Below, one piece after another: positions 6,905 through 25,705 of a DNA stretch of 64,000 bases; position 1 is the first letter of the stretch, and the number at the start of each line of letters is the position of its first letter. This DNA is from Erythrobacter neustonensis. Its GTDB lineage: Bacteria > Pseudomonadota > Alphaproteobacteria > Sphingomonadales > Sphingomonadaceae. Both the position numbers and the translations under genes were made by a program. The notes under the pieces are model-generated. The model worked only from the letters and a program-made list of their open reading frames with translations. It had not been told where the DNA came from and made no database searches. Where the stretch lies: positions 992,001-1,056,000 of the forward strand of contig NZ_CP016033.1 in assembly GCF_001663175.1 (NCBI RefSeq), in the 5' to 3' direction.

Positions 6905-8608
6905 ATGAACATCCGGCCACTGGCATTCGGAACGCTGCTTGCCGCCACGTTCGGGCTTGCCGCCTGTCAGACCACGCCTGCGCCCGGCACGGCCAGCGCC
7001 GCGCTCGACATTCCCGCCACCGCACCGGGCGCGATTTCGGAACGCACGATCAAGGATGTCACGCGCACGCTCTCCAGCGACGCTTTCGAAGGCCGCGCGC
7101 CGGGCACGGTGGGCGAGGAGAAGACCATCGCGCTGATGACCGAACGCTTCAAGGCGGCGGGCCTCAAGCCCGGCAATGGCAATTCGTGGGTGCAGGAAGT
7201 CCCGCTGGTCGAGATCACGGGCCGCGATTACGCCCCGCTGACCATTAGCGGCGCGACCGCGCCATTGAGCTTCGATTTCCGCAAGGACTGGGTCGGCGTC
7301 ACCTACCGCGAGGATGCGGCGACCACGCTGGCGAACAGCGAACTGGTGTTCGTCGGCTACGGCATCAATGCGCCCGAAAAGGGCTGGAACGACTACGCCG
7401 GGCTCGATGTGAAGGGCAAGACGGTGGTGATCCTCGTCAACGACCCCGATTGGCAATCGGCAGGGCTCGAAGGGCCGTTCAACGGCAAGGCGATGACCTA
7501 TTACGGGCGCTGGACGTATAAGTATGAAGAGGCCGCGCGGCAGGGGGCGGCGGGGGCGCTGATCGTCCACCAGACCGCGCCGGCGGCCTATGGCTGGAAC
7601 GTGGTCGAAAGCTCGTGGACCGGGGCGCAGGCCTATGCCCGCCGCGGTGCGGGCGCACCGCCGCTGACGCAGATGAACGGCTGGCTGACCGAGGATGCCT
7701 CGCGCCGGTTGCTGGCCGCTGCCGGACAGGATCTCGACGCGCTGACCCGCGCCGCGCGGACCAAGGGTTTCAAGCCCGTGCCGCTCGGTCTCAAGCTGTC
7801 GACCAGGTTCGCGAGCGATGTGCGCAGCTTCACCTCGCACAACATCATCGGCATCCTGCCGGGCAGCGAGAAGCCCGATGAGTACGTGCTGCATACCGCG
7901 CACTGGGATCACCTCGGGCGCTGCACGCCCGCGGCAGACGGCGACGATATCTGCAACGGCGCGATCGACAATGCGACTGGCACCGCCGCGCTCGTCGCAT
8001 TGGCCGAAGCCCACGCCAAGGCGGGCGCGCCGCGCCGCAGCCTCGTGTTCCTTGCAGTGACGGCGGAGGAATCGGGTCTGCTGGGTGCGACCTATTATGC
8101 GCAGAACCCGGTCTATCCGCTCGCGCAGACCGTGGGCGGGGTAAACATGGACGCGCTCTCGCTCGCCGGCCCCGCACGCGATGTGACCGTGATCGGCGGG
8201 GGCAAGTCGCAGCTCGACGCGTTCCTCGATTCGGCGCTGAAGGCGGCGGGGCGCACCGCGACCCCCGATGCCAAGCCCGAGGCAGGCTATTACTACCGTT
8301 CGGACCACTTCGCCTTTGCCAAGCTTGGCGTGCCGATGATCTATGTCGAAGGCGGCGAGGATCTGATCGCGGGCGGGCGCGCGGCGGGCGAAGCGGTGGC
8401 GGCCGATTATACCGAAAACCGCTATCACGGCCCCAAGGACGAGTTCAACGAGAGCTGGGACTGGTCGGGCGTGATGACCGATCTGCAGCTTTACTACCGG
8501 CTTGGCCGCACGCTGGCGATGAGCACGAGCTGGCCCAACTGGAACGATGGCGACGAATTCCGCGGCGTGCGCGATGCCTCGTGCAAGGCTGCGGCCAAGG
8601 GCTGCTGA
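6905..8608 (+). CDS. M28 family aminopeptidase-like lipoprotein
   Basis: This 567-residue protein has a lipoprotein signal peptide (LAAC, Cys at about 22). A PA-type insert lies near 130-230 and a zinc-dependent M28 catalytic domain follows. Metal and catalytic residues are visible: HTAHWDHLG (H-x-D, about 332), GAIDNATGTAAL (bridging Asp), VTAEESGLLG (catalytic and metal Glu, about 387), VNMDAL (Asp) and YYRSDHFAF (His). It is expected to cleave N-terminal residues from peptides at the cell surface or in the periplasm. GGAGAG lies 8 bases before the ATG. It is transcribed divergently from glnE, and the agmatine deiminase gene follows after 8 bases. Confidence 0.93.
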   Translation: MNIRPLAFGTLLAATFGLAACQTTPAPGTASAALDIPATAPGAISERTIKDVTRTLSSDAFEGRAPGTVGEEKTIALMTERFKAAGLKPGNGNSWVQEVPLVEITGRDYAPLTISGATAPLSFDFRKDWVGVTYREDAATTLANSELVFVGYGINAPEKGWNDYAGLDVKGKTVVILVNDPDWQSAGLEGPFNGKAMTYYGRWTYKYEEAARQGAAGALIVHQTAPAAYGWNVVESSWTGAQAYARRGAGAPPLTQMNGWLTEDASRRLLAAAGQDLDALTRAARTKGFKPVPLGLKLSTRFASDVRSFTSHNIIGILPGSEKPDEYVLHTAHWDHLGRCTPAADGDDICNGAIDNATGTAALVALAEAHAKAGAPRRSLVFLAVTAEESGLLGATYYAQNPVYPLAQTVGGVNMDALSLAGPARDVTVIGGGKSQLDAFLDSALKAAGRTATPDAKPEAGYYYRSDHFAFAKLGVPMIYVEGGEDLIAGGRAAGEAVAADYTENRYHGPKDEFNESWDWSGVMTDLQLYYRLGRTLAMSTSWPNWNDGDEFRGVRDASCKAAAKGC

Positions 8609-8616
8609 GACGCGCG

Positions 8617-9597
8617 ATGACGATGATGATGCCCCCCGAATGGGCGCCGCAGGACTGGATCTGGATCGGCTTTCCCCATCTGGCGGAAGAATGGCCCGGC
8701 TGGCTTGAGGCTGCGCAGGTGCAGATGGCGGCTTTCGCCAGCGCGGTTGCCGAAAGCGGGCAGGAAGTCCGCCTGCTGGTCCGCGACGAGGCCAACGAAG
8801 CCCGCGCCCGCGCGCTGGTCAGCGGCAAGGTCACGCTGGAACGGCGCGTCTATGGCGATGTTTGGCTGCGCGATACCGGCCCGCTGGTGGTGCATGACGG
8901 GGCCGAGCGGATCGCGCGGCGCTTTGCCTTCAACGGCTGGGGCGAGAAATACCTGATGCCAGGCGATCAGGAGATCGGTGCCGAAATCGCGCGCGATGCG
9001 GGGCTTGCGGTCACGCATACGCCGATGATCCTCGAAGGCGGGGCGGTGGATGGCGACGGCACGGGGCTGGTCGCGACGACCGAGCAATGCCTTTTGAACC
9101 CCAATCGCAACCCCGCGATGTCGCGCGAAGAGATCGAAGCCGAACTCGCCGCGCAACTGGGCTTTACCCGCGTGCTGTGGCTGGGCGATGGGCTGATCAA
9201 CGATCACACCGATGGCCATGTCGACAATCTTGCGCGCTTCGTCGGCCCTAACCGGCTGGTGGTGCCCGAGGCGACCGGCGCGGACGATCCCAATGCCGCG
9301 ATTTATGCCGATGCCGCGGCGCGCGCGGTGGCCGCGGGTGTCGAGGTGGTGCGGATCCCTTCACCGGGCCTCATGACCCGCGACGGGGTGGTGGAACCGG
9401 CCAGCTACGTCAACTTCGCGATCACCAGCCATCTGGTGGTGGTGCCGACCTTCGGCAGCCCGCACGATGCCGATGGCATCGCCGCGATTGCTGCGCTGTT
9501 CCCCGACCGTGATTGCGTCGGCCTGCCGGGCGAAGCGGTGCTGGCGGGCGGCGGGGGCTTCCACTGTGCCAGCCAGCAGATGCCCTCGGCGCTTTAA
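8617..9597 (+). CDS. aguA: Agmatine deiminase family protein (peptidyl-arginine-deiminase fold)
   Basis: The 326-residue protein would hydrolyse agmatine to N-carbamoylputrescine and ammonia. Family signatures are VWLRDTGPLVV (about 83), ILEGGAVDGDG (about 140), NDHTDGHVDNLARFV (about 195) and the C-terminal catalytic cysteine in GGGGFHCASQQ (about 318). All are intact. The ATG at 8617 is used because the GTG at 8581 would lie inside the M28 gene; the ribosome site is weak, and translational coupling to the M28 stop 8 bases upstream is likely. The symbol is by family; related enzymes can use other guanidino substrates. Confidence 0.88.
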   Translation: MTMMMPPEWAPQDWIWIGFPHLAEEWPGWLEAAQVQMAAFASAVAESGQEVRLLVRDEANEARARALVSGKVTLERRVYGDVWLRDTGPLVVHDGAERIARRFAFNGWGEKYLMPGDQEIGAEIARDAGLAVTHTPMILEGGAVDGDGTGLVATTEQCLLNPNRNPAMSREEIEAELAAQLGFTRVLWLGDGLINDHTDGHVDNLARFVGPNRLVVPEATGADDPNAAIYADAAARAVAAGVEVVRIPSPGLMTRDGVVEPASYVNFAITSHLVVVPTFGSPHDADGIAAIAALFPDRDCVGLPGEAVLAGGGGFHCASQQMPSAL

Positions 9598-9632
9598 CGC
9601 TTCGTTAGGGAATTGGGAGGACAAGCATCGCC

Positions 9633-9767
9633 ATGACCCGCGCCCTTGCTCTTGCCCTGCCGCTAGCCGATCTGGCCCGCATCGATTCGCTCGATCTGGC
9701 GCGCCGTGCGATCGTGCTCGGCTGCGGAGCGGCGCTGATCTTTGCAGGACAAGCCCTGCCCTTCTGA
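9633..9767 (+). CDS. Possible 44-residue small membrane protein
   Basis: A short reading frame of 44 codons follows the agmatine deiminase gene. GGGAGGA lies 12 bases upstream of the ATG. The product has a charged first half and one hydrophobic C-terminal stretch (IVLGCGAALIFAGQALPF). It resembles no family I recognise. It ends 10 bases from the convergent TauE stop. Codon choice follows the local high-GC pattern, but the frame is short enough to be chance. Confidence 0.35.
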   Translation: MTRALALALPLADLARIDSLDLARRAIVLGCGAALIFAGQALPF

Positions 9768-9777
9768 TCGCGCCCGT

Positions 9778-10518
9778 CTAGACCAGCCGCGCGAGCGCCG
9801 CGGCCGCCGCGCCGCCCAGCACCAGCGCAACGAACACGCGCCACACCGGATCGCTCACCCGGCCCGATACGCGCGCGCCCAGCCGGTTGCCCGCGATGAT
9901 CATCGGCAGCATCGCCAGTGCAAACAGCAGCAGTTCCCAGCGCAGGATGCCCAGCCACAACGCGCTCGCTAGCCCGGCGCTGGCAGCAATCGTGAAGATC
10001 AGCTGCATCGATGCCTTGATCGTGGCTCGCGGCAGGTCGCGTCCCGCATAATAGGGCACCACCGGGGGCCCGGGCATTCCGGCGTAACCGGTCAGCAGTC
10101 CGCTTACCACGCCCACCGCGCCCGTCGTCAGCCGGCCCGGCATTCCTGCGCCGCGCTTGGGCAACAAAATCGCGGCAAAGGCGGACAATGCGATCAGCGC
10201 GATCACCGCCCGCGCGGTGTTCCTGTCGGTGATCGACAAGACATAGAGCCCGAGAGGCGTCGCCAGCACCACCAGCGCGCCGATCACCCACGCGCTCCTT
10301 TCGGCATCGCGCACAAGGCTGCGGATCTCGGTCGCGCCCAGCATGAGCGCAAGCGCATTGGTCAAAAGCACCGCCTCGACCGGGGGCAACGCCAGCGCGA
10401 GCACGGGGACCATCAGGATCGCCATCCCGAACCCGGTCAGCCCGCGCACAAAGGCCGAGCCGAGCGCCGCCGCCAGCGCAAAGGCGATCTGCGCCAGCGT
10501 GAAGCCTGCGATCAGCAC
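9778..10518 (-). CDS. TauE/SafE (TSUP) family membrane permease
   Basis: This 246-residue protein is almost wholly hydrophobic with about eight predicted membrane segments. It carries the two glycine-rich repeats typical of the family, GLTGFGMAILMVPVLALALPP near the N-terminus and GLLTGYAGMPGPPVVPYY in the middle. Members export or import sulfite, sulfonates or other organic anions across the inner membrane; the substrate here is unknown. It is the last gene of the thrS-DUF305-TauE operon, 7 bases downstream of DUF305. Confidence 0.88.
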   Translation of the reverse strand: MLIAGFTLAQIAFALAAALGSAFVRGLTGFGMAILMVPVLALALPPVEAVLLTNALALMLGATEIRSLVRDAERSAWVIGALVVLATPLGLYVLSITDRNTARAVIALIALSAFAAILLPKRGAGMPGRLTTGAVGVVSGLLTGYAGMPGPPVVPYYAGRDLPRATIKASMQLIFTIAASAGLASALWLGILRWELLLFALAMLPMIIAGNRLGARVSGRVSDPVWRVFVALVLGGAAAAALARLV

Positions 10519-10525
10519 GGGCGGG

Positions 10526-10924
10526 TTACTGTGCGCCGCGTGCCTTCAGCCAGGTTTCCATCTCTTCGATTTCGGCCTTCTGCGCCGCGATCACCCGCGT
10601 TGCGAGATCGCGCGCCTGCGCGTCCTTGGCGTATTTCAGCGCGACTTCGGACATTGCGACCGCGCCTTTGTGGTGCGCGAGCATGCCTTGCATGAAGGCC
10701 AGATCGGCATCGGCGGGAATGTCCATCATGTCGGCGTGCATTTTGTCGTTCACTGCCTTGTAGGCTGCCTGCGCTTCGGTGAGGTCGCCCGCCGGCGAGG
10801 CCATTGCGCCCATGTCGTGGCCCATCGCGGCGTGATCGACCGCAGCGGTTTCATCCTTGGCGGGTTCGGCGTTGCAGGCGGCCAGCAGCGCAGTCGTGGC
10901 CAGCAATATGAGAGCGTTCTTCAC
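10526..10924 (-). CDS. DUF305 lipoprotein, likely metal-binding
   Basis: This 132-residue protein has a lipobox (LLAAC, Cys at 17), a His/Met-rich segment ([11 protein letters not shown]) and a DUF305 four-helix domain. Family marks are [20 protein letters not shown] and [14 protein letters not shown]. The clustered His and Met residues suggest copper or other metal handling in the periplasm (inference). The start is GTG and overlaps the thrS stop as GTGA. A GGAGA site 7 bases upstream inside thrS supports this start. The coupling means DUF305 expression follows thrS translation. Confidence 0.9.
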
Positions 10925-12930
10925 TGGGCATTCTCCGTGATCAGGTCGGGCGGGGTGCCTTCGCGCTTGAGCAACGCGATCGCTTCATCAAGCGACATCA
11001 CCTTCTGATGTTCCGCGCCCAAGGTGCGGACCGCGACGGTGCCTTCCTCGGCCTCGCGCTTGCCCACCACCAAGAGGTGCGGAACCTTGGCAAGGCTGTG
11101 CTCGCGCACCTTGTAGTTGATCTTCTCGTTGCGGGTGTCGGTCTCGACGCGGATGCCCGCCGCCTTCAGTTGGGCTTCGACGTCGTGGGCATAGCCGTCG
11201 GCATCCGAAACGATGGTGGCGACCACAGCCTGCACCGGGGCGAGCCACGTCGGCAGCTTGCCGGCGAAGTGTTCGATCAGGATGCCGATGAAGCGTTCGT
11301 AGGAACCGAAGATTGCGCGGTGGAGCATCACCGGGCGGTGCTTTTCGCCGTCCTCGCCGATGTAATTGGCATCGAGCCGCTCGGGCAACACGCGGTCGGA
11401 CTGGATCGTGCCGACCTGCCACGTCCGCCCGATCGCGTCGGTGAGGTGCCATTCGAGCTTGGGGGCGTAGAAGGCGCCCTCGCCGGGGAGTTCCTCCCAT
11501 TCGAGGCCGTTGGCGGTGAGCGCATCGCGCAATTCCTGCTCGGCCTTGTCCCAATCCGCCTCGCTGCCGAAGCGCTTTTCGGGGCGCAGCGCGAGCTTGA
11601 TGTCATAGGTAAAGCCGAAGTCGCGATAGACGCTGTCCGCGAGCGCGATGAACGCCTGCACTTCGGCGACGACCTGGCTTTCGGTGCAGAAGATATGCGC
11701 ATCGTCCTGCGTGAACTGGCGCACGCGCATCAGTCCGTGGAGCGCGCCGTGGGGTTCGTTGCGGTGGCAGCAGCCCATTTCGCCGAGGCGAATGGGGAGG
11801 TCGCGGTAGGAGGTGATCCCCTGCTTGAAGACCATCACGTGCGCGGGGCAGTTCATCGGCTTGATCGCCATCCACGCGGCATCGTCAGCCACCTTGGGGG
11901 AGGCGACGCCTGATTCTTCATCGACGTCCGGCACGATGTCGGGGACGGCGAACATGTTCTGCGCATACTTCCCCCAGTGGCCGGATTGCGTCCACTGGCG
12001 CACGTCCATCAGCTGCGGGGTCTTGATCTCGCGGTAGCCGCCGCCGTCCATCTTGCGGCGCATGTAGCTTTCAAGCTCGCGCCAGATGCGATAGCCCTTG
12101 GGGTGCCAGAAGACGCTGCCGTGCGCCTCTTCCTGCAGGTGGAACAGGTCCATTTCGCGCCCCAGCTTGCGGTGGTCGCGCTTGGCCGCTTCCTCCAGCC
12201 GCGTAAGGTGCGCGTTGAGCTGCTTCTTGTTGAGCCAGCCAGTGCCGTAGATGCGGGTGAGCTGCGCATTGTTCTGGTCGCCGCGCCAATAGGCCCCGGC
12301 GACGCGCATCAGCTTGAAGGCATCGGGATCGAGCTTGCCGGTCGAGGGCAGGTGCGGCCCGCGGCACATGTCGAGCCAGTCGTTGCCCGACCAGTAGACC
12401 GTCAGTTCCTCGCCCTCGGGCAGTTCTTTCGCCCACTCGGCCTTGAAGGTTTCGCCCTCACCCGCCCATTTGGCGATCAGGTCTTCGCGGCTCCACACCT
12501 CGCGGCGCAGCGGCTTGTCCGCGCGGATCAGACGGCGCATTTCCTCCTCGATCGCGGGAAGATCGTCCATCGAGAACGGCTCGCGATTCTCGGGGGCTTT
12601 CACGTCGTAATAGAAGCCGTCGTCGGTCGCCGGGCCGAAGGTGATCTGGGTCCCGGGGAACAGCGATTGTACCGCTTCGGCCAGGATGTGCGCGTAGTCG
12701 TGGCGGGCGAGTTCGAGCGCATCGGCTTCGTCGCGGCTGGTGACCAGCGCGAGGCTCGCATCGCCATCGAAGGGGCGGGTGAGGTCGCGCAGCTCCCCGT
12801 CGACGCGCGCGGCGATCGCGGCTTTCGCAAGGCCGGGGCCGATCGCGGCGGCGATATCGGCGGGGGTGCTGCCGCGAGGCACTTCGCGCACCGAGCCATC
12901 GGGCAGGCTGATCTTGAGCAATTCGGTCAT
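10921..12930 (-). CDS. thrS: Threonyl-tRNA synthetase
   Basis: This 669-residue class II synthetase charges tRNA-Thr with threonine. Domains in order are the N-terminal TGS domain (1-60), the tRNA-SAD editing domain (about 65-220, with [10 protein letters not shown] and, in the second half, [11 protein letters not shown]), the catalytic core (about 240-540, including [12 protein letters not shown] with the zinc Cys, and RMRVRQF-type motif 2 visible as [16 protein letters not shown]) and the anticodon-binding domain (about 550-650). Length is typical. The ribosome site before the ATG is weak. The 132-base spacer upstream contains alternative hairpins and is preceded by a Thr-rich leader peptide, suggesting control by threonyl-tRNA supply. 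Confidence 0.98.
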
Positions 12931-13062
12931 GATAATCGCAGGTCCGTCTGGTTTGCGGCCCGCCCTGCCACAAAGGGCAAGGCACCGGAAGAGCGGTGTT
13001 GTGCGAAAGCCGAACCGGGAAGGACACCGCGCCGCCCCGATCCGGGGGGCGGGGCGCTGGCC
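12931..13062 (-). promoter_or_regulatory. thrS 5' leader with mutually exclusive hairpins
   Basis: This is the spacer between the Thr-rich leader peptide stop and the thrS start. Complementary arms seen directly are: 13032-13038 with 13046-13052 (CCGCCCC/GGGGCGG); 12994-12999 with 13024-13029 (CGGTGT/ACACCG); 12983-12987 with 12994-12998 (CACCG/CGGTG); and 12962-12966 with 12974-12978 (GCCCT/AGGGC). The second and third pairings use the same segment, so they cannot form together, which is the arrangement expected of an attenuator. I see no clear U-run after any hairpin. If this is an attenuator, it may act through Rho or through thrS translation. Confidence 0.5.
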
Positions 13063-13140
13063 TCAGCCCGAACGCCGCCGCCCCCGGATGGTAGTCCGGG
13101 TGGTGGTGGTTGTCGTGAGGGTGGCAAGCAGCATGGCCAT
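13063..13140 (-). CDS. Thr-rich leader peptide upstream of thrS
   Basis: A 25-codon reading frame (ATG at 13140, alternative in-frame ATGs at 13134 and 13152) ends 132 bases before thrS. Nine of its 25 codons are Thr, including six in a row, and one is Ile: ATLTTTTTTRTTI. The composition is like ThrL, the leader of the enterobacterial thr operon. Part of the Thr codon region can itself fold (13083-13088 with 13095-13100, CCCGGA/TCCGGG). No Shine-Dalgarno sequence is obvious; a leaderless or weakly initiated message is possible. The position directly ahead of the gene for threonyl-tRNA synthetase makes a regulatory role much more likely than chance. Confidence 0.65.
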   Translation of the reverse strand: MAMLLATLTTTTTTRTTIRGRRRSG

Positions 13141-13207
13141 GGCGCAAGCCATAGGCGGCGTATGGCTGCGAGTCACGCGAAAGTGAAGACAGTGATGGAA
13201 AGCCTGC

Positions 13208-13236
13208 TTGACACGGTGATCGGCAGGTGTGTAAAG
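13208..13236 (+). promoter_or_regulatory. Candidate promoter for the small-membrane-protein/XRE cassette
   Basis: A consensus -35 box TTGACA (13208-13213) is followed after 16 bases by TGTAAA (13230-13235), a four-of-six match to -10. It lies 32 bases upstream of the 54-codon gene. It sits in the same intergenic region as the divergent thrS leader. Confidence 0.5.
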
Positions 13237-13267
13237 GGTCCTTGCCAATAAGCAAAAGGAGCTTTCC

Positions 13268-13432
13268 ATGACCGCCATTCAACAGGCACTCTGCCTTTCC
13301 GCCGTGATTTTCGCCGTTGCGCTGCTTGCGGTGTTCGACGTGGTGCCCGCGCAGGTTGCGCAGTTCGCCCCGCTCGCGGTTGTGCCGTTCGTCGCCGGTC
13401 GCCGCGCAGCCTGCACTCTACGCCGGGCCTGA
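13268..13432 (+). CDS. Small hydrophobic protein, 54 residues
   Basis: This short gene has a strong ribosome site (AAAGGAG, 7 bases before the ATG) and a candidate promoter upstream. The product has a hydrophobic segment (residues 7-24, LCLSAVIFAVALLAVFDV), a second apolar stretch (37-45) and a basic tail ending CTLRRA. It is probably a single- or two-pass membrane peptide. Five bases separate it from the next membrane-protein gene, so it heads a three-gene cassette with the 139-residue protein and the XRE regulator. Function unknown. Confidence 0.6.
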   Translation: MTAIQQALCLSAVIFAVALLAVFDVVPAQVAQFAPLAVVPFVAGRRAACTLRRA

Positions 13433-13437
13433 AGCCG

Positions 13438-13857
13438 ATGCGCAATGTTGCTGCCGCGCGCTATACCCGGCGCATGCTGCTGATCGCCGCGGTCTATGTC
13501 GCAGGGATCGTGCTGGCGAGCATGGTGATCGACCCCGGCGCCCCGCTTGGCCTGCTGGGAATCGGTCTGGCACTGATCCCCGGTGCGGCGATGCTCGCGG
13601 CGATCGGCGCGATCGGGCGCTTCGTCGCCGAGCTTCCGGACGAATATCTGCGGATGCTCGAAGTGCGCAAGATCATCGTCGCGACCGGGGTGACGCTGGC
13701 AATCACCAGCGTCTGGGGGCTGCTCGAGCTTTATTCGGACAGCCTGCCGCGCCTGCCGGTGTTCTATGTCTTCCCGATCTGGTGCGCCGGGCTGTTCGTC
13801 GGCCAGTTGGTCAACCGCTTTGCCTTCGGCGGCGATGATACCGGAGGCTGTCCGTGA
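13438..13857 (+). CDS. Four-helix membrane protein of unknown function
   Basis: A 139-residue protein with about four predicted transmembrane segments (roughly 13-31, 36-58, 78-98 and 106-126). A short basic N-terminus and a polar loop with LPDEYLRMLEVRKI lie between helices 2 and 3. I do not recognise a named domain. Its stop overlaps the GTG of the XRE gene (GTGA), a coupling often seen when a small HTH regulator controls its own membrane partner. The likely role is in a small stress or signalling cassette; nothing in the sequence shows a substrate. Confidence 0.8.
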   Translation: MRNVAAARYTRRMLLIAAVYVAGIVLASMVIDPGAPLGLLGIGLALIPGAAMLAAIGAIGRFVAELPDEYLRMLEVRKIIVATGVTLAITSVWGLLELYSDSLPRLPVFYVFPIWCAGLFVGQLVNRFAFGGDDTGGCP

Positions 13858-14057
13858 ACAACCGCCTGAAGGTGCTGCGCGCCGAGCGGGGCTGGAGCCA
13901 GCAGGATCTGGCCGACCGGCTCGGCGTGTCGCGGCAAAGCGTCAACGCGATCGAGACCGGGCGGTATGACCCCTCGCTCCCGCTCGCCTTCACCATCGCC
14001 GATCTGTTCGCGCTGCCGATCGAAGCGATCTTCAGCCGCGATCAGACGACCAGCTGA
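13854..14057 (+). CDS. XRE-family helix-turn-helix regulator
   Basis: A 67-residue protein made almost entirely of one Cro/C1-type HTH domain: LKVLRAERGWSQQDLADRLG, then VSRQSVNAIETGRYDPSLPLA and LPIEAIFSRD. It resembles the YozG-type small regulators that follow membrane-protein genes. It starts at GTG, with GGAGG 7 bases upstream inside the previous gene. Its last 16 bases overlap the convergent phoD gene. It probably regulates its own operon (inference). Confidence 0.92.
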   Translation: MNNRLKVLRAERGWSQQDLADRLGVSRQSVNAIETGRYDPSLPLAFTIADLFALPIEAIFSRDQTTS

Positions 14058-15700
14058 CGCGATCCTTTCGCGGTCGTGATCCGCTTGCTTCCGGCAAGCT
14101 GCGCCGAACGCTGCCGCATCCCCCCGGTGAAGCGGTATTCGGTCACCGTGCTTGCCGGGGTCAGCGCGACCATCATGTAACCGCGCTGCGAGGTTTCGGC
14201 CCATTTGAGCTGCGGGTTTTCGGCCACCAGCGAGGATGCCAGCGTGTCGGGCTTGATGAAGGTCAGATAGCTTTCATAGCCCGGCGAGCTCACTGAATTG
14301 CCGCCGAATTCGACGCCCACCGGCGTGCCGTCATGCGCCAGATCGAAGGCCCAGGCATTGTGCGTGTCGCCCGCCAGCACGACGAGGTTGGCATCGGCGT
14401 TCAGCGCGGCCTTGAACAACCGGGTGCGCGCGGCGGGGTAGCCGTCCCATGCGTCCATGTTCGACGGCAACCCCGCTTCGCTTGCGGCGGCGGCGGCTTC
14501 AAGCCGGGTGCGGATGAATTCGGGCAATCCGCTGCCCGCCTGCCGCATCAGGTCCTTGGGTGTCTTGAGATTGCCCATCAGCACGCCTTGCAGCAGCACC
14601 TGCCAATGCGTGCCCGCGCGCGTCGATGCGGCCAGCGCCTCGCTCAACCAGGCTTCCTGCGTCGCGCCCAGCATCTGCCGGTCCGCACCGGCCCAGTCCC
14701 CGTCACGGAAGGCCGAAAGCGTCGCCGTCAGCGCTTCGGGATCGGTCTTGCCGGCCATCATCTTTTCGAGACTGAATTGCTCCTCGCGCCCTTCGAGCCG
14801 GGTGTCGAGCCGGAACAGGGTCGCCAGATCGCCGACCTGATAGGCCGAATAGGGCGTGTCGGCGACCGGTAGCCATTCGCGGTAAGCCTGTGTCGCGGCC
14901 GCCTTGCGCGCATCCCAGCTGCCTTCGGTGGCGGGCTGGTGGTTCTGCGCGCCGCCCTTCCACGAATCGTTCGCGGTTTCGTGATCGTCCCACACGGTGA
15001 TCATCGGAAGCACCTGATGCAGCCGCTGCAGATCGGGATCGGCGCGGTAGGTGGCATAGCGCAGCCGGTAATCGGCGAGCGCGACGATCTCGCTTGCCGG
15101 CGCGACCGGGCGGTCGGGATGCGCCTGTCCGCCGCTGGGATAGGTGCCAGCGCCATATTCGTAGATGTAATCGCCCAGATGCACCGCCAGATCGCAGTCG
15201 TTCGCCGCTGCCGCGTGGGCATAGGCGTTGAACCAGCCGAACCCGAGGTTCGCGCAGGAAAACACCGCCATCTTGAACCCAGCAGAGGGGCCCTGCGGCA
15301 GCGTGCGCGTGCGCCCCGTTGGCGAGGGCGTGCCATCAGGGGCAAGGAAGCGGTAGAAATACCAGCGGTCGGGCGACAATCCGGTCGCGATGCCCTTGGC
15401 GCACCAGTCGCGCGACGGGGCGGCGGTGACGCTGCCTTCGGCGACGGGGCGGGCGAAATCCTCGCTCTCGCTCACCTGCCAGGTCAGCACGGTTTCGGCA
15501 GTGCCGACATAGCGGGTCCACAGCAGCACCGAGGTCGCCGCAGGCTCGCCGCTGGCAACGCAATGCGTGAAGCCGTTGCCGAACCCGGTCGCCCGCGCCG
15601 GGACCGTCGCCAAGGCCGCGCCCGCACCTGCCAGCGTGAACAGCGAGCGCCGGGTGAGCGCGGTGGCGGCTGGCAGGCCCGCGGAGGCATTGGTGGTCAT
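14042..15700 (-). CDS. PhoD-like alkaline phosphatase, Tat-exported
   Basis: This 552-residue metallophosphoesterase is expected to release phosphate from phosphoesters in the periplasm. The N-terminus carries a twin-arginine signal (TRRSLFTLAGAGAALATVPARA), so it is likely folded with metals before export. An N-terminal PhoD domain (about 40-140) precedes the catalytic domain. Metal motifs seen are VHLGDYIYEYG, TVWDDHETAND and LAGDTHNAW. The ATG at 15700 has AAGGGA upstream; the longer frame to 15823 would bury the Tat signal. It overlaps the 3' end of the XRE gene by 16 bases, convergently. No Pho box was identified in the short divergent spacer. Confidence 0.93.
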   Translation of the reverse strand: MTTNASAGLPAATALTRRSLFTLAGAGAALATVPARATGFGNGFTHCVASGEPAATSVLLWTRYVGTAETVLTWQVSESEDFARPVAEGSVTAAPSRDWCAKGIATGLSPDRWYFYRFLAPDGTPSPTGRTRTLPQGPSAGFKMAVFSCANLGFGWFNAYAHAAAANDCDLAVHLGDYIYEYGAGTYPSGGQAHPDRPVAPASEIVALADYRLRYATYRADPDLQRLHQVLPMITVWDDHETANDSWKGGAQNHQPATEGSWDARKAAATQAYREWLPVADTPYSAYQVGDLATLFRLDTRLEGREEQFSLEKMMAGKTDPEALTATLSAFRDGDWAGADRQMLGATQEAWLSEALAASTRAGTHWQVLLQGVLMGNLKTPKDLMRQAGSGLPEFIRTRLEAAAAASEAGLPSNMDAWDGYPAARTRLFKAALNADANLVVLAGDTHNAWAFDLAHDGTPVGVEFGGNSVSSPGYESYLTFIKPDTLASSLVAENPQLKWAETSQRGYMMVALTPASTVTEYRFTGGMRQRSAQLAGSKRITTAKGSRQLVV

Positions 15701-15800
15701 GGCGGCGTCCCTTGTCTCTCTCCGGTTGCGCTGCTGTGACAGTCGCGAAGGCCACGCACAATGCTTGCCCTTTCGCCCTTGCGCAAGGCATGGTCGGCGC

Positions 15801-16535
15801 ATGACCACGATCATGCACCACACGCTCTACCAGGGGCCGCGCGTCGCCTTCCGTTACACCGACGGGACGGGGCCGTGCTTCGTCTTCCTGCCCGGTTACA
15901 TGTCCGACATGAGCGGCAGCAAGGCGACCGCGCTGTTCGATGAGGCGAAAGCCAAGGGGCGCGCCTGCCTGCTCCTCGATTATTCGGGCTGCGGGCAGTC
16001 GGACGGCGATTTTGCCGACGGGATGCTGTCGGTCTGGCGCGACGAGGTGCTGGCGCTGGTCGACAGCTATGTCACCGGGCCGGTGCTGCTGGTCGGCTCG
16101 TCGATGGGCGGGTGGCTGATGCTGCTGGTGGCCGAACATCTCAAGCACCGCCTCGCAGGCATGATCGGGATCGCCGCCGCGCCCGATTTCACCCGCTGGG
16201 GCTACAGCGATGACCAGCGCGCGATGCTGGCTGCGGGCGAGACGGTGTTCGAAGCCAATCCCTATGGCCCCGAACCCACCCCTACTCATGCGAAGTTCTT
16301 TGCCGATGCCGAATGCCACGTGCGGCTGGAGGCCGCGATCGACCTGTCCTGCCCGGTGCGGCTGATCCACGGCAAACAGGATGCCGATGTGCCGTGGGAG
16401 ATTTCCCAAAGGCTTGCCGCGATGCTGCGGTCGGACGATGTTCAGGTCACGCTGGTAGAAGACGGCGATCACCGCCTGTCGCGGGAAAGCGACATTGCCC
16501 TTCTCAAGGCCATCGTGGCCGAATTCTACGGATAG
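15801..16535 (+). CDS. Alpha/beta hydrolase, ABHD10-like thioesterase
   Basis: A 244-residue serine hydrolase with the nucleophile elbow GSSMGGW (about 108), the acid in GKQDADVPW (about 193) and His in DGDHRLS (about 222). The oxyanion region is LPGYMSDMSGSK. The GHRLS-type end and overall layout resemble ABHD10/palmitoyl-protein-thioesterase-like hydrolases, which remove acyl groups from protein or small-molecule thioesters. No signal peptide, so cytosolic. The start at 15801 leaves 100 bases for divergent promoters with phoD. The TPR gene follows 5 bases later. Confidence 0.88.
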   Translation: MTTIMHHTLYQGPRVAFRYTDGTGPCFVFLPGYMSDMSGSKATALFDEAKAKGRACLLLDYSGCGQSDGDFADGMLSVWRDEVLALVDSYVTGPVLLVGSSMGGWLMLLVAEHLKHRLAGMIGIAAAPDFTRWGYSDDQRAMLAAGETVFEANPYGPEPTPTHAKFFADAECHVRLEAAIDLSCPVRLIHGKQDADVPWEISQRLAAMLRSDDVQVTLVEDGDHRLSRESDIALLKAIVAEFYG

Positions 16536-16540
16536 CGCCC

Positions 16541-17440
16541 TTGTCCCTTCTGCTTGCCCTTGCCCTTCAGGTCGGCCCCAATCCCTTGGGCGGCGCGATG
16601 CCCAACGACGATCTGGTGCGCGACCGCCCGCCGCGCGCCGATGCCGCAGCGCCGCCGCCGAGTGCCGCCGATGTTGCCGCCGAAGCCCCGCTCAATGCCA
16701 CCAGCGCGTGGTTGCAGGGGTGCCTGTCGCAGCTGGAGGAAGACCCTGCGCGCGCCCACGCCATGGCGCAGATCCGCCGCGCCGAGAGCACCGGCACCGA
16801 CCGCGTGCTCGCCAACCACTGCCTCGGCACGGCAGCCTCCGAACTGGGCCTGTGGGACGATGCGCGCACCGCCTTTGCCGCAGCGCGCGCCGAAACCCCG
16901 GCAGCCGAATCGCGCACTCGCGCGCGCTTTGGCGCACTGGCCGGCAATGCCGCGCTGGCGGGCGGCGATGCGGCGGGTGCCGAACGCCTGCTGATCGAAG
17001 CCGAGGCCGATGCCCGCGCCGCACGGGCTTCGCTGCTCGAAGCGATCGCCGCGACCGACCGCGCGCGCGCGCTGGTGACACTGGGCCGCACCGATCAGGC
17101 GCTCGCCGCGTTGGACAACGCCACCACGCTTGTTCCCGACCGCGCCGAAGGCTGGTTGCTGAAAGCCACGCTGCTGCGCCGGCTGGAGCGCCTGCCCGAA
17201 GCGCAGACCGCGATCGAGCGCGCGGCAACGCTGGCGCCGTCGAACCCCGCTGTCGGGCTTGAAGCGGGCGTGATCGCGGTGCTGACCGGGCGCGATGCGG
17301 CGGCGCGCGCAAGCTGGCAGTCGGTGATCGACCTTGCGCCCGGCACGCCTGAGGCCGCGACCGCCACCGGATACCTTGCGCAGCTCGCCCCGGCTCCCGA
17401 CATTGCGGTGCCGACGCCCGAGGAGACACCGCCGCCATGA
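16541..17440 (+). CDS. Secreted tetratricopeptide-repeat protein
   Basis: A 299-residue protein rich in Ala/Leu helix pairs. Successive TPR units are visible from about residue 55 to 280, for example [39 protein letters not shown] and [23 protein letters not shown] at 16541 gives a short hydrophobic N-terminus ([18 protein letters not shown]) that looks like a signal peptide. An internal ATG at 16598 would remove it, so TTG is preferred, though the ribosome site is weak. A role as a protein-protein scaffold in the periplasm is inferred. The stop overlaps the next ATG as ATGA. Confidence 0.8.
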
Positions 17441-18440
17441 CCCGTTTTTCCGTTCTCGATCTGGTGCCCGTGCGCGAAGGCGGCACGCTGGCCGAAGCCT
17501 TTGCCGCCACCACCGCGCTTGCCCGCGCGGCGGAAGACCTGGGCTGCGACCGCTTCTGGGTGGCCGAACACCACGCGATGGACGGAATTGCCGGCGGCGC
17601 GACCTCGGTGGTGCTAGCGCATATCGGAATGCGACCAGCCGGATCCGGATCGGATCGGGCGGGATCATGCTGCCCAACCACACCCCGTTCCAGATCGCCG
17701 AACAGTTCGGCACGCTGGACGCATTGTTCCCCGGCCGGATCGATCTCGGGCTCGGCCGCGCGCCGGGGGCGGGGCCCGAGTTGCAGCGGGCCTTGCGCAA
17801 GAATCTCAACCAGGCGGCCGAATATTTCCCGCAGGACGTGATCGAACTGCGCGCGCTGCTGACGGGCGATCTCGATCTGCCGATCACCGCCACTCCGGGA
17901 CGCGGTGCCAATGTCGAGATGTGGATGCTCGGGTCGAGCCTGTTCGGTGCGCAACTCGCAGCAAAGCTCGGCCTGCCCTATGCCTTTGCCGCGCATTTCG
18001 CGCCCGATCACCTCGACACCGCGCTGGCGGTCTATCGCCGCGATTTCCAGCCATCGGCCACGCTCGATCGCCCGCATGTAATGGTCGCGATGAACGTTTT
18101 TGCCGCCGACACCGAAGCCGAGGCGCGGCTGCTCGCCTCTTCGCAGCAGCAAAGCTTCGTGCGGCTGCGTACCGGGCAGCCGGGACGCATGCCCCCGCCG
18201 ATCGCGAATTACACGGACACGCTGCCCGCGCCTGCGCAAGCGATGCTCGCGCATATCGGACAGGCCGCCGCGGTCGGCACGCCTGAACAGGTGCGCGAAC
18301 AGATCAGCGCATTCGTGGCCCGAACCGGAGCGGACGAAATCCTGTTGTCGGGCGCGACCTACGATCCGCAAGCGCGCATTCGCAGTCTGGCGCTGACGAT
18401 GGAGGCGATGGGTGCGGAGGCTGCGATGGTTGACGCCTAG
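17437..18440 (+). pseudogene. Luciferase-like (LLM) flavin-dependent monooxygenase, frameshifted
   Basis: The first 63 codons ([18 protein letters not shown]... to VVLAHIG) and the segment from [20 protein letters not shown] onward are consecutive parts of one LLM-class oxidoreductase, but they lie in different frames. The break is at 17626-17628, where the sequence reads atc-gga-atg; one extra base after GG would restore [18 protein letters not shown]. The downstream part continues intact to the stop at 18440, with the usual [10 protein letters not shown] motif near the end. As written, the frame-1 product ends at 17841 as a 134-residue chimera and would be inactive. A one-base sequencing error is an equal possibility. 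Full-length product would be 333-334 residues, normal for the family. Confidence 0.85.
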
Positions 18441-18515
18441 TTCGGCAATCATCCCACTTGCACAAGGCGCACCGAAAGGCCTATCGCCATCCGACACGAT
18501 AACAACAATCCGGCA

Positions 18516-18524
18516 TAATATAAT
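18516..18524 (+). promoter_or_regulatory. Candidate -10 element for glutamate dehydrogenase
   Basis: The AT-rich stretch TAATATAAT holds a perfect TATAAT (18519-18524). It lies about 42 bases before the gdh start, in an otherwise GC-rich spacer. No good -35 box is seen at the right distance; GACA at 18493-18496 is the nearest resemblance. Confidence 0.4.
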
Positions 18525-18566
18525 TACAGCCGCACGCCGGATCCGCAGGATGAGCAGGAGCCGAAA

Positions 18567-21500
18567 ATGGGGTCTAAGACCGTCGCCGCCAAGGGCGTGC
18601 GCAGCAATGCGCAGGCGCTGACCAAGGCGCTTCGCAGCCAGCTTGAAGCGTCGCTGCTGCCGGGCGAGGCCCCGGCCGACAAGGCGGCGCTCGATGACGC
18701 TGCCGACTGGCTGATCGCGGCGGCTGCCACCCGCGCCCCGGGCGAGCCCATCGTCCTGATCGAATCCGCCGCGCGCGAAAAACGGCACTTGCGCATCGCC
18801 ATCATCAACGACGATCAGCCGTTTCTGGTCGATTCGGTTGCGGCGGCGATCGCGGCGCAGGGGTTCGGCATCGACCGGATGCTGCATCCGGTGGTCGAGG
18901 TTGCCCGTGACGAATCGGGTGCAATCACCGCAATCGGCAAGGACGGCGCGGCGCAGCGCGAATCGATCATCTACATCGAAACCCCGCGCGGCGACGCCCG
19001 CCAGCGGCGCGAACTGCACGAGGCGATCGAGGCGGCGCTGGGCGATGTCCACGCTGCGGTCGCCGATTGGCCCGCGATGCAGACCGCGATCCGCGAGGAT
19101 GCAGGGGCCGTCGCCGCGATCGACGCCGAAGCGGGCGCGCTGCTCGAATGGCTGGGCGACGGGATGCTGACCCAGCTTGGGCACATCACCCGCCGCCGCG
19201 ACGGCACCAGCGAGGCGCGGCTGGGCATCTGCCGCGCTTCGGCGCAGGACCTGCTCGCCGAGATTTCCTACGAACGCGCCTTCGAATGGTTCGATGCCGC
19301 AGAAAAGGACGGCGCGCCCAAGGCGATGCTGGCGATCAAGTCGAACGTGCAGTCGCGCGTTCACCGCGCCAGCCCGCTCGACCTGTTCATCGTCCCGGTG
19401 CGCGAGGGCGGCACGATTGCTGCGTTGTCGATCCATGCCGGGCTGTGGACCAGCGCAGCCATGAATGCGCGCCCCGCCGAAGTGCCCGTGCTGCGCGCGA
19501 TGGTGGCCGATCTGACGCACAAGCTGGGCTTCGATCCGAACGGCCACAACGGCAAGGCGCTGGTCCATGCCTTCGCCTCGCTCCCCAACGATCTGCTGAC
19601 CGCCTTTGCGCCCGACCGTGCAGCGCATCTGGTGACCGCGAAGATGGCGCTGATCGACCGTCCGCGCACCCGTGTCATCACCGTGCCCTCGCTGCTTGAA
19701 CGCCATGTCTTTGCCTTCGTGTGGTTACCGCGCGACCAGTTGAGCACCGATGTCCGCTTGCAGATCCAGGCGATGCTGCTGCAATCGCCCGGCGCCGCGC
19801 TGCTCGACTGGAGCCTCGAGGTCGAAGGGTCGAACCTGGCGCTGCTGCGCTTCCTGATCGACGTGCGCGCCTGCGCAGCCCTGCCCGATGATGCCGCGAT
19901 CGAAGCGCAACTGGCCGATCTCCTGCGCGGCTGGAACGAGGCGGTCGCGACCCATCTCGCCACCAGCGAGGAAGAGGGCCGGGCGGCAACGCTCGCCAGC
20001 CGCTATGCCGCCGCCTTCCCGACCGGATACCGGCTTGCCTATGGCCCCGAGGAGGCCGCGCGCGACATCGCCAAGCTGCGCGCGCTGGCGCTGACCGAGG
20101 GCGAAAGCCAGATTGCCAAGGCCCCGGAGCGCGCGGTGCGCCTGTTCCGGCTTGCCGGGGACGGGCGCGAAACGCTGCGGCTCAAGGTCTATCTGCATCG
20201 CGGCGCACTGGCACTGTCCGATGCGGTGCCTGCGCTCGAGAATTTCGGCTTCCGTGTGATTGCCGAGGTGCCGACCTATCTGACCGATGCCACTCTCGGC
20301 TCGATCCACGATTTCATCCTGACGCTGCCCGCGGGCCACGATGCCGACACGCTGCTCGACCGTGCCGCGCTGATCGAAGGCGCGCTCGCTGATGTGTTGA
20401 ATGGCGCGGCGGAGGATGATCCCTTCAACCGCCTGATCCCCGCCGCCGGCCTCGCCCTGCGCGAAGCGAACTGGCTGCGCGCAGTCTATCGCTACCTGCG
20501 CCAGACCGGGGTCAGCTACACGATCTACACCGTGGTCGATGCGCTGGCCGCCGCGCCGCAGGTGACGCTGGCGATGATCGCGCTGTTCGAGGCGACCCAC
20601 GATCCCGATTTTGCCGGTGAGCGCGATGAGGCGGTCGCCGCCGCGCAATCCGCCTTCACCCGCGGGTTGGCGAAAGTCACCGCGATCAACGACGACCGCC
20701 TGCTTCGGCTTTACCGCGCGGTGCTGGGCGCGGTGCTGCGCACCAACGCCTTTGCGCCGGCCGCGGCCGAGGCGCTCGCCTTCAAGCTCGATTCGCATCA
20801 GGTGCCGGGGCTTCCCAAGCCGCTGCCGTGGCGCGAGATCTTCGTCTATTCGCGCCGGGTCGAAGGCATCCACCTGCGCTCCGGCCCGGTCGCGCGCGGG
20901 GGCCTGCGCTGGTCCGACCGGCGCGACGACTTCCGCACCGAAGTGCTCGGCCTGATGAAGGCGCAGCGGGTCAAGAATGCGGTGATCGTGCCGACGGGGG
21001 CCAAGGGCGGGTTCTATCCCAAGCAATTGCCCAACCCCGCGCTCGACCGCGAAGGCTGGGCCGCCGAAGGGCGCGCGGCCTACGAAATCTTCATCCGCAC
21101 GCTGCTGTCGGTCACCGACAACATCGTCGATGGCCGCGTGGTGCATCCCGATGCCGTTGTCGTGCGCGACGGCGAGGACCCCTATTTCGTGGTCGCCGCG
21201 GACAAAGGCACCGCGACCTTCTCCGACATTGCCAACGGGATCGCGCAGGGGCGCAACTTCTGGCTCGACGATGCCTTCGCCAGCGGCGGGTCGAACGGGT
21301 ATGACCACAAGGCGATGGGGATCACCGCGCGCGGCGCCTGGGTTTCGGTCCAGCGCCATTTCCGCGAAATGGGGATCGACGTGCAGACCGATCCGGTCCG
21401 CGTGGCAGGTTGCGGCGACATGTCGGGCGACGTGTTCGGCAACGGGATGCTGCTGTCAAAAAGCATCCAGCTGGTCGCCGCCTTCGATCACCGCCACATC

Positions 21501-23288: not shown

Positions 23289-23310
23289 GCAAAGGTTGAA
23301 ACCATCAGGT

Positions 23311-23352
23311 TGACCCTTGGCCGATTTGCGGCACATCAAGGGCCAAGGGTCA
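23311..23352. repeat. 12-bp inverted repeat between gdh and the flavoprotein gene
   Basis: Perfect arms TGACCCTTGGCC (23311-23322) and GGCCAAGGGTCA (23341-23352) are separated by 18 bases. It begins 23 bases after the gdh stop and ends 21 bases before the next start codon. It could form a stable RNA hairpin (terminator or processing site) or be a regulator-binding site. No T-run follows. Confidence 0.75.
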
Positions 23353-23373
23353 CCTGAAGGGCATAGCGACGCA

Positions 23374-24618
23374 ATGGCAGCAATGAACCAACACGCCGAT
23401 GTCGTGATCGTCGGCACCGGCCACGGCGGCGCGCAGGCCGCGATCGCGCTGCGCCAGCACGGGTTCGAAGGTTCGATCCTGATGATCGGGCGCGACACTG
23501 CGCCGCCTTACGAACGCCCGCCCCTGTCAAAGGAATATCTCGCGGGCGACAAGGGGTTCGAGCGGATCATGATCCGGCCCGAGAAATTCTGGGCCGAGAA
23601 GGATATCGCCCTGCGTCTCGGTGCAGCGGTGACCGCGATCGATCCGGTGCGCCATGCGCTGACGCTGTCCGATGGCGGGCAAGTGACCTATGGCAAGCTG
23701 ATCTGGTCGGGCGGGGGCGATCCGCGCCGCCTGCCCGTGCCGGGTGCGGTGCTGCCCGGGGTGTTCTATGTCCGCGACAAGGGTGATGCCGATGCTATGA
23801 TGCGCGCGCTCGACGCGGGCGCGCGGCGCGCGGTGGTGATCGGCGGCGGCTATATCGGGCTGGAGGCCGCCGCGGTGCTGCGCAAGCTCGGCTGCGAGGT
23901 CGTGCTGGTCGAAATGTTGCCGCGTCTGCTGGCGCGCGTGGCCGGCGAGGAATTGTCCGACTTCTATGCCGAGGAACACCGCCGGCAGGGGGTGGATGTG
24001 CGGCTCGAAACCGGGGTCAGTGCAGTGCTCGGCGAAAGCGAGGGGCGGGTCACCGGCGTCCGGCTCGACAATGGCGAGGAAATCGCCTGCGACATGGTCG
24101 TCGTCGGGATCGGGGTGGTGCCCGCGGTCGCGCCGCTGATCGCTGCGGGCGCGGCGGGCAGCAACGGGGTCGATGTCGATTTCTGCTGCCGCACGACGCT
24201 CGACGATGTCTATGCGATCGGCGACTGCGCCGCGCACGCCAACGCCTTTGCCGACAATGCGGTGATCCGGCTGGAATCGGTCCAGAACGCGCACGACATG
24301 GCCGCCACCACCGCACGCGCGATCATGGGCGACAAGACGCCCTATCACGCGCTGCCGTGGTTCTGGTCGAACCAGTATGATCTGAAATTGCAGACCGCCG
24401 GGCTCAGCCTCGGTTTCGACCAGACCGTGCTGCGCGGCGATCCGGCGACGCGCAAGTTCACCGTGGTCTATCTGAAGGGCGGCAAGCCGATTGCCTTCGA
24501 TTGCGTGGGCACGATGAAGGATTACGTGCAGGCGCGAAAGCTGCTCGAAAGCGGGGTAGGCAAGGTCGATCCGGCGCTGCTGGCAGATCCCGAGGTGGCG
24601 CTCAAAGACCTGATGTAA
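23374..24618 (+). CDS. FAD-dependent NAD(P)H ferredoxin/rubredoxin reductase family protein
   Basis: A 414-residue flavoprotein with an N-terminal FAD Rossmann motif ([14 protein letters not shown], about 10-23), a central NAD(P)H-binding motif ([17 protein letters not shown], about 153) and the FAD-pyrophosphate motif VYAIGDCA (about 280). A C-terminal reductase domain starts at about 325 with [15 protein letters not shown]. This matches the reductases that pass electrons from NAD(P)H to [2Fe-2S] ferredoxins serving P450s or dioxygenases. The ATG at 23374 (or 23383) is chosen over the TTG at 23317, which lies inside the inverted repeat. A CYP153-like P450 lies 3.5 kb downstream and could be a client (inference). 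The 3' end overlaps queG by 17 bases. Confidence 0.9.
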
Positions 24619-25657
24619 GCCGCGCCAGCGCCCATCGGGCGGCATCGGCAACCACCGGGTCAGGGTCGGCGGTCAAGGCTTGCACCTGCACCGCAAGCCC
24701 GGCGTTGCCGCTGTTGCCCGCGGCATACAGGCAGTTGCGCACGAAGCGGTCACGCCCGATCCGCTTGATCGGAGAGCCCGAGAACAGCGCCCGAAACCCC
24801 GCATCGTCGAGCGCCAGCAACTCGCCCAGCCGCGGCGCGACCAGTTCGGCGCGCGGCAGGAATTCGCGCATCGCCTGCGCCTGGCTGGCAAACTTGTTCC
24901 ACGGGCACACCGCAAGGCAATCGTCGCAGCCATAGATGCGGTTGCCGAGGCCCGCGCGCAGATCCTCGTCGACCGGCCCCTTGTGCTCGATCGTGAGGTA
25001 GGAAATGCAGCGCCGCGCATCCAATCGGTAAGGCGCGGGGAAGGCATTGGTGGGGCAGGCATCGAGACACGCGCGGCAGCTTCCGCACTGGTCGCGGTGC
25101 GGCGTCGCCGGAGCAAGATCGAGCGTGGTGTAGATCGCCCCCAGAAACAGCCAGCTGCCATGCGTCGGGCTGACCATGTTGGTATGCTTGCCCTGCCACC
25201 CGATCCCGGCGGCCTCGCCCAGCGGTTTTTCCATCACCGGGGCGGTGTCGACGAACACCTTGACCCCTGCGCCGGGCACCTCGGCCACCAGCCAGCGGGC
25301 CAGCGCCTTCAGCCGTTTCTTGACGACATCGTGATAGTCCTTGCCTTGCGCATAGACCGAGATCCGCGCGTGGCTGTCCGATCCTTCGAGCGCGAGCGGA
25401 TCATGCGCGGGCGCGTAGCTCATCCCCAGCGCGATCACGCTGCGCGCCTCGTCCCACAGACCTTGCGGCGAGCGCCGGTGTTCCAGCCGCGTCGCCATCC
25501 ATTCCATGCTGCCGTGGTGGCCTTCGCCCAGCCACTGTTCGAGCCGCGCGGCGCGCAGCGGATTTTCGCGCGCGCCGGTAAAGCCGCACACGGCAAAGCC
25601 TTCGGCCAGCGCCTGCGCACCGATCCGGTCGGCAAGGCTTGCGGCCGTGTTAACCAT
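24602..25657 (-). CDS. queG: Epoxyqueuosine reductase
   Basis: A 351-residue cobalamin- and iron-sulfur-dependent enzyme that carries out the last step of queuosine synthesis in tRNA, converting epoxyqueuosine to queuosine. The two [4Fe-4S] clusters are shown by [16 protein letters not shown] and [15 protein letters not shown]. An N-terminal DUF1730-type cobalamin domain (about 20-180) and a C-terminal HEAT-like tail are present. The start at 25657 has GGGAG about 10 bases upstream. It is divergent from the ABC transporter operon and convergent with the flavoprotein gene. Confidence 0.96.
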
Positions 25658-25705
25658 GTCTGGAGAGGCTCCCGTTCAATCCTGCGCGCTAATCGCGTAA
25701 GCCCT

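Follow-up and report, generated by a model that had tools for sequence, protein, structure and literature searches.

Upstream of thrS, the gene for threonyl-tRNA synthetase (ThrRS), Erythrobacter neustonensis carries a Thr-rich leader frame that is headed by a promoter-like sequence and followed by covarying RNA arms. We studied this device in a window of 64,000 nucleotides (nt) (contig NZ_CP016033.1, positions 992,001 to 1,056,000; coordinates below are those of the window) and in the thrS upstream regions of relatives. A reading made from the sequence alone had proposed that a ribosome translating the Thr leader controls thrS, and conservation of the leader, covariation of the arms, the position of the predicted promoter and the choice of Thr codons all argue for that proposal. 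We put at about three in four the probability that the device is a ribosome-mediated attenuator, similar to the his leader, which senses charged tRNA-Thr and controls thrS; the estimate was lowered to this value because the state in which thrS would be on is weak in our folds.

The leader peptide of the window, MAMLLATLTTTTTTRTTIRGRRRSG, has 25 codons with nine Thr, six of them consecutive, and one Ile, and its stop lies 132 nt before the thrS start, exactly as the sequence-only reading had described. That reading extended the element to 13152. The leader more probably starts at the ATG at 13140, since the one at 13152 falls within the predicted -10 hexamer TATGGC (13153-13148). The 3.09 Mb genome has four sites with six consecutive AC- codons (seven overlapping matches); besides the leader, these are two sites in long frames and one that is out of phase within a 507-codon frame. 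To place the leader among relatives we gathered 190 thrS upstream regions, 181 of them distinct: 80 loci from named genomes, the window, and a sampled part of 29 loci and 80 short stretches taken in list order from 249 family genomes (243 with thrS). A mechanical test (at least four Thr in ten residues, with the frame ending 40-220 nt before thrS) was passed by 89/181 regions, and six were dropped by eye; the remaining 83/181 are not a frequency, as the sample is skewed to close relatives. These 83 leaders start with ATG in 80 cases and GTG in three, and they contain a median of 7 Thr codons (range 4-12) with runs of 2-9.

The leader frame lies directly behind the predicted promoter, P1. The P1 spacer is 17 nt in 75/83 leader loci, positions 2-4 of the -35 element read TGA in 69/83, the best-scoring -10 element starts with TA in 83/83, and the distance from its end to the leader start is 6-8 nt in 81/83; these counts are upper bounds, because the leader start codon was the one giving the highest promoter score, in which TA is itself rewarded. 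In shuffled DNA with a fixed start, the observed median promoter score was reached in 0.3%. The predicted promoter suggests that transcription of the leader RNA starts at or adjoining the leader start codon, and the RNA would then begin with the leader frame.

The arms (Table 1) covary clearly in the pairs 3:5, 3b:4 and 0:1 and more weakly in 2:3. For each pair of regions we computed a z value that compares complementarity within a locus with complementarity between loci. Among the planned pairs (82 loci), z was 12.6 for 3:5, 10.9 for 3b:4, 5.9 for 0:1, 5.5 for 2:3, 3.9 for 6:7, 1.7 for 1:2 and -2.3 for 4:6, and six off-target region pairs gave -1.7 to 0.8. Pairing 14 regions in all 91 combinations (80 loci) returned the same leading pairs (3:5 12.9, 3b:4 11.3, 0:1 6.1, 6:7 3.7), followed by 1':2' and thr:1' (3.2 each), 2:3 (3.1), 5:RBS (2.5; RBS, ribosome-binding site), 1:7 (2.3) and 1:2 (2.0), the remaining pairs lying below 2 with a minimum of -4.4. 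These values ignore relatedness. Their control, the remaining pairs of regions in these loci, spreads from -4.4 to about 3, which makes any z below about 4 untrustworthy alone. The 82 loci hold 53 distinct arm pairs for 3b/4 and 72 for 3/5. Base pairs were also counted on a MAFFT alignment (66 loci) in which arm 4 is visibly misplaced (3b:4 helix 65% paired); this count gave mixed results, exceeding its shuffles in cells paired (80.8% vs 78.5), double-change cells (44 vs 21.9) and score (0.141 vs 0.110). The sequence-only reading had located the switch in two exclusive pairings of 12994-12999, with either 13024-13029 or 12983-12987. Both are possible in the window, and the first, which is 3b:4, covaries; the second, also tried as a cascade step (4:6), was rejected with z values of -2.3 and -2.4 in the two comparisons. 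To judge from the covariation, the conserved competition sits further upstream, in arms 0, 1, 2, 3 and 5.

Table 1. Features of the thrS leader region (window coordinates; pairs of arms are written as arm:arm)
Feature	Coordinates	Strand	Sequence	Remarks
-35 element of leader promoter P1	13171..13176	-	GTGACT	placement and spacing conserved in the 83 leader loci
-10 element of P1	13148..13153	-	TATGGC	7 nt 5' of leader ATG; spacing kept
Leader open reading frame	13063..13140	-		25 codons + TGA; predicted start at or adjoining transcription start; 21-26 codons in 83/83 loci
Six-Thr run	13099..13116	-	ACG ACA ACC ACC ACC ACC	control codons are the last four
Arm 0	13095..13100	-	CCCGGA	partner arm 1
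Arm 1	13078..13088	-	TCCGGGGGCGG	partner arm 0 or arm 2
Arm 2	13045..13052	-	CCGCCCCC	partner arm 1 or arm 3
Arm 3	13032..13044	-	CGGATCGGGGCGG	partner arm 2 or arm 5
Arm 3b	13024..13030	-	GCGGTGT	partner arm 4
Arm 5	13011..13020	-	TCCCGGTTCG	partner arm 3
Arm 4	12993..12999	-	ACACCGC	partner arm 3b; followed by TCTTCC, without U-run
Downstream element	12961..12991	-	CTT-N16-TGTGGC	hairpin 6:7 (12984-12977 with 12968-12961); possible second promoter P2, outside the switch
thrS	10921..12930	-		threonyl-tRNA synthetase; four Pfam domains above cut-off

In the mechanism that we propose, a ribosome short of charged tRNA-Thr would wait on the last Thr codons and cover arm 0, leaving arm 1 free to take arm 2 (1:2); arm 3 would then be free for arm 5 (3:5), and thrS would be on. 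When tRNA-Thr is charged, the ribosome would reach the stop and cover arm 1, arm 2 would take arm 3 (2:3), 3b:4 would form and thrS would be off. The arms that form at each ribosome position were modelled on 82 leaders, folded as far as arm 4 under the assumption that the ribosome shades the RNA to +12 of the A-site codon. For a ribosome at the stop, the mean probabilities were 0.85 for 2:3 (above 0.5 in 71 loci), 0.82 for 3b:4 (above 0.5 in 70) and 0.03 for 3:5. With the ribosome on each of the last four Thr codons, arm 2 was paired upstream at 0.49-0.69, 2:3 fell in the range 0.15-0.37, 3:5 averaged 0.32-0.38 and 3b:4 0.18-0.38. Without a ribosome, 0:1 reached 0.54 (43 loci), 2:3 0.46 (36) and 3b:4 0.58 (49). 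Shuffling the segment behind the Thr run lowered upstream pairing of arm 2 in the stalled folds to 0.19-0.20 and 3:5 to 0.13-0.19, with 3b:4 at 0.19-0.27, and exchanging G and C in this segment gave 3b:4 0.45. In the model, then, the post-run segment captures arm 2 and doubles 3:5; the off state comes out clearly and the on state partially. The expected on state was seen in L005 and L095, two of seven folds inspected.

The Thr codons themselves carry a signal. ACT makes up 22% of the leader Thr codons in the 83 loci vs 3% in thrS of the same loci. At the four codons adjoining arm 0, 293/315 Thr codons (93%) are ACC or ACT; farther upstream the count is 129/235, close to the share in thrS (0.525 of 1098 Thr codons). 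By distance from arm 0 the counts are 80/83, 78/83, 69/75 and 66/74, then 40/67 at the fifth codon; p-values for this bias ignore relatedness. Given the +12 shade of the model, the fourth codon would be the last from which the ribosome still touches arm 0. ACC and ACU are read by tRNA-Thr(GGU) through ordinary wobble, and the genome has one tRNA-Thr each with the anticodons GGT, TGT and CGT (46/47 tRNA matches typed). The pattern suggests selection on codon choice at those four positions, from which a stalled ribosome would mask arm 0, and could alternatively be due to keeping the Thr run unpaired. The window leader has two extra Thr codons within the 0:1 loop.

The device is linked to thrS across part of the family. 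We built a covariance model (R1) of arms 0-4 from 66 loci; it matched 136/397 family genomes in 34/96 genera, with one match each. In the order it matched 45/196 genomes, all 45 within the same family as the window (Sphingomonadaceae), and in the class 4/385, all four among the five family members listed; about 380 other class genomes gave no match, under strict filters, used in both large searches, that lose weak matches. We could place 78/136 matches relative to a listed thrS, and all 78 lie upstream on the thrS strand (58 unplaced); 73/78 end 43-79 nt before thrS and five at 571-584 nt. Leader loci outside the model matched as well, from about 1e-14 in four loci in which another gene, X, stands between device and thrS, through L071 (2e-9), L122 (1e-8), L009 and L130 (3e-6) and L096 (3e-5), to weak matches in L003 (0.0011), L056 (0.0017) and L060 (0.12). 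Loss of the Thr run with its surroundings kept, which the sequence-only reading had named as fatal to it, was looked for in the 98 regions that have no leader nearby. There R1 gave four matches up to E 1, one weak match to the arms of a decayed leader (L104, E 0.015) and three at E of at least 0.46 on the opposite strand. Five of these 98 regions (L113, L144, L147, L149, L151) come from genomes with the device farther upstream, so that it belongs to 88/181 thrS genes, and none was seen in the other 93 by the frame test and R1. In a FastTree phylogeny of 108 thrS proteins, 43 of them from leader loci (21/104 inner branches open), the leader trait requires 13 changes vs about 34 with shuffled labels, and thus appears clustered and repeatedly lost or gained. 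One genome (G180, locus L110) belongs to the same genus (g1) as another with the device, is negative by the frame test and R1, and keeps the downstream element described below; from this it appears that the device can be lost within one genus. L003 shows a natural loss of another kind: within the 130 nt that precede thrS, a leader frame poorer in Thr codons persists and the arm 2-4 segment is missing.

Several results weigh against an attenuator of this design. The U-run expected behind an intrinsic-terminator hairpin was not found after arm 4 in most of the 82 loci. Arms 1 and 2 are almost invariant, and 1:2 is nearly without covariation. In the MAFFT count, double-change pairs (7 vs 7.7 shuffled) and further pair types (23 vs 23.1) showed no excess, and the structure slid by -3 scored 0.131, vs 0.141 in place, with 12 double-change pairs. 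In the stalled folds 3:5 exceeded 0.5 in just 24-30/82 loci, which leaves the on state weak in the model; the minimum-energy fold of the stalled window retains 2:3 and lacks 3:5, and those of L001 and L024 retain 2:3 and 3b:4. The modelled fall of 3b:4 on stalling is non-specific and no specific evidence for the switch, because the leader with a shuffled segment shows it too. It is also not obvious how 3:5 would block 3b:4, since the two helices cross without common bases in 77/82 loci. Finally, many family members lack the device.

The crossing of the two helices, whose short loops would suit an H-type pseudoknot (on geometry only), and the preference for ACC and ACU at the four codons adjoining arm 0 also allow a more specific version of the attenuator, in which it is tuned to the isoacceptor tRNA-Thr(GGU) and built, free of a U-run, on a pseudoknot on state with 3:5 crossed by 3b:4. 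We regard this version as tentative and rather doubtful; if true, ribosome-mediated attenuation by such an isoacceptor-tuned pseudoknot would be of a new design.

How the off state would act on thrS is best judged from the sequence behind arm 4. The 8 nt that follow hold 2-3 T in 73/82 loci, 4-6 in eight and 1 in one, which bears out the missing U-run of the sequence-only reading; the loop of the 3b:4 hairpin is mostly 22-28 nt, and a terminator scan of 8000-27000 found 10 sites vs 11.5 in shuffles, none at the leader. Because the intrinsic terminator was looked for and not found, we class the device as working like a ribosome-mediated attenuator and not as the classical intrinsic-terminator type. 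Of the two outputs that the sequence-only reading had left open, Rho or translation of thrS, we favour the first: the off state probably ends transcription prematurely, and help from Rho or pausing is proposed because there is no U-run. The same sensor could instead have a translational output, with a ribosome-binding site hidden in the off structure, a mode that has been proposed for leaders of the LEU-element and ermC types, and the lack of a U-run in most loci would fit this. We consider it unlikely, since arm 4 usually ends tens of nt before thrS (at the 43-79 nt seen for most placed matches) and the thrS ribosome site takes part in no strong covarying helix: 5:RBS is the best such pair among the 91, 3b:RBS reaches 1.7 and the others are lower.

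Gene X bears on this question from both sides. In five genomes 571-584 nt separate the device from thrS (G059, G006, G100 and G162, loci L202-L205, and G211 by coordinates). In the four loci read, L202-L205, gene X (168 residues) begins 12-15 nt after arm 4, without a U-run, so that 3b:4 could touch the ribosome site of X, as a translational output would have it; thrS itself is a whole gene away in all five, which counts against masking of its own site. Arms 3b and 4 are rewritten in the gene-X loci, for example as GCGCCG with CGGCGC in L203. The device may head an X-thrS operon in these genomes. The best Pfam match of X is an Rv2179c-like 3'-5' exoribonuclease, with E values of 0.0032 and 0.091, both under the cut-off, and this assignment was set aside. 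No match to X was found in the window's own genome, in a search without a positive control.

It seems very improbable to us that the frame serves to make a functional small protein rich in Thr, with the RNA folding as a by-product. Conservation of the frame in 83 loci, often with RGR as the final residues, would suit such a protein, but the residues beyond the Thr run vary widely, the run length itself ranges widely, the RGR codons coincide with arm 1, with which arm 0 changes in step, and the covariation of the downstream arms is independent of the frame.

Between arm 4 and thrS lies a further conserved element, in which CTT precedes T[GAC]TG[CGT][CA] by exactly 19 nt (window 12991-12967) in 73/83 leader loci and in 15/98 others (L045, L094, L099, L102, L104, L110, L121, L153, L155, L171, L175, L176, L178, L186, L188); any other distance tested occurred in at most two regions. 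This rigid element looks like a second promoter adjoining thrS. Hairpin 6:7 had been considered as the regulated output and was set aside, as the 19-nt element is present in leaderless regions. If ThrRS acted on the thrS mRNA directly, or if a T-box were in control, the leader would be a bystander. Such control has precedents in the autoregulation of E. coli ThrRS and in T-boxes before synthetase genes (PMC2965389), but it is highly improbable here, given that no Rfam family, T-box included, reached its gathering score in the leader region (in 12900-13200 just a snoRNA below it, E 2.7; for an E. coli-type operator, with tRNA-Thr-like domains over the thrS ribosome site, the search covered Rfam alone), that the covarying arms sit between the leader and the downstream element, and that this element also occurs without the leader, as suits a promoter.

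The preferred reading, a Thr-sensing attenuator before thrS, has relatives among known systems. Its switch logic resembles that of the his leader, hisL. Like the his- and trp-type attenuators of Proteobacteria, the thrS leader combines a run of cognate codons with alternating arms read by ribosome position; unlike them, it controls a synthetase gene, lacks a U-run terminator and has helices 3:5 and 3b:4 that cross without common bases. In E. coli, the synthetase genes pheST are likewise under leader-peptide attenuation, with the Phe codons of pheM and an intrinsic terminator.

Published systems offer further parallels. The trpL attenuator of Sinorhizobium meliloti, in the same class of bacteria, is leaderless, its RNA starting at the ATG as predicted for the thrS leader (PMC7298713). 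In Streptomyces lividans, leaders are known or proposed before the synthetase genes thrS, alaS, leuS and trpS (thrL, alaL, leuL2 and trpL2, respectively), and thrL-thrS is, as here, a leaderless Thr leader before thrS for which no uridine-rich sequence was noted; it differs in having 18 residues with two Thr and in its distant phylum (PMC8079986). Leaders before trpS and leuS are known or proposed in Streptomyces, and the LEU element before leuA in Actinobacteria shares with the thrS leader a codon run, a possible pseudoknot and an alternative hairpin (PMC1262725). Pairing of the codon run with the ribosome-binding site, a feature of the LEU element, was not found for the thrS leader (thr:RBS z 0.7, 80 loci). 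His leader peptides have been predicted before hisS paralogues of bacilli, again before a synthetase gene, and differ in belonging to Firmicutes, in using His codons and in having been found via Rho-independent terminators (PMC2965389); thrS does not appear in the passages of PMC4833913 consulted. The general trick is thus known, and the version with this Thr leader and these arms before thrS seems undescribed: we found no report of it in the open-access papers searched, and older surveys outside that scope may contain an earlier prediction.

Elsewhere in the genome, a rough scan of synthetase genes (12 loci: one thrS, two with too little flank) led us to accept no cognate codon run in the other nine; a Ser-rich frame before a SerRS-like gene was taken as chance, as it overlaps a 193-codon frame in another phase. 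ARAGORN called a tRNA-Ala(GGC) at 41824-41917 (- strand) of the window, which has no Rfam match at gathering score and is possibly spurious; the genome has another tRNA-Ala(GGC). At the window end, about 63920-64000 (- strand), lies the 3' part of a leuS-like gene cut by the window edge.

We infer that the leader most likely raises ThrRS output when charged tRNA-Thr runs short. Such a device would be a well-resolved example, in Alphaproteobacteria, of a synthetase gene controlled through a leader peptide, and it occurs in enough species to study how it works without a U-run. Its natural variants, including the different run lengths, the arm loss in L003 and the insertion of a gene after the device in five genomes, allow direct tests of the codon rule and of how termination occurs.
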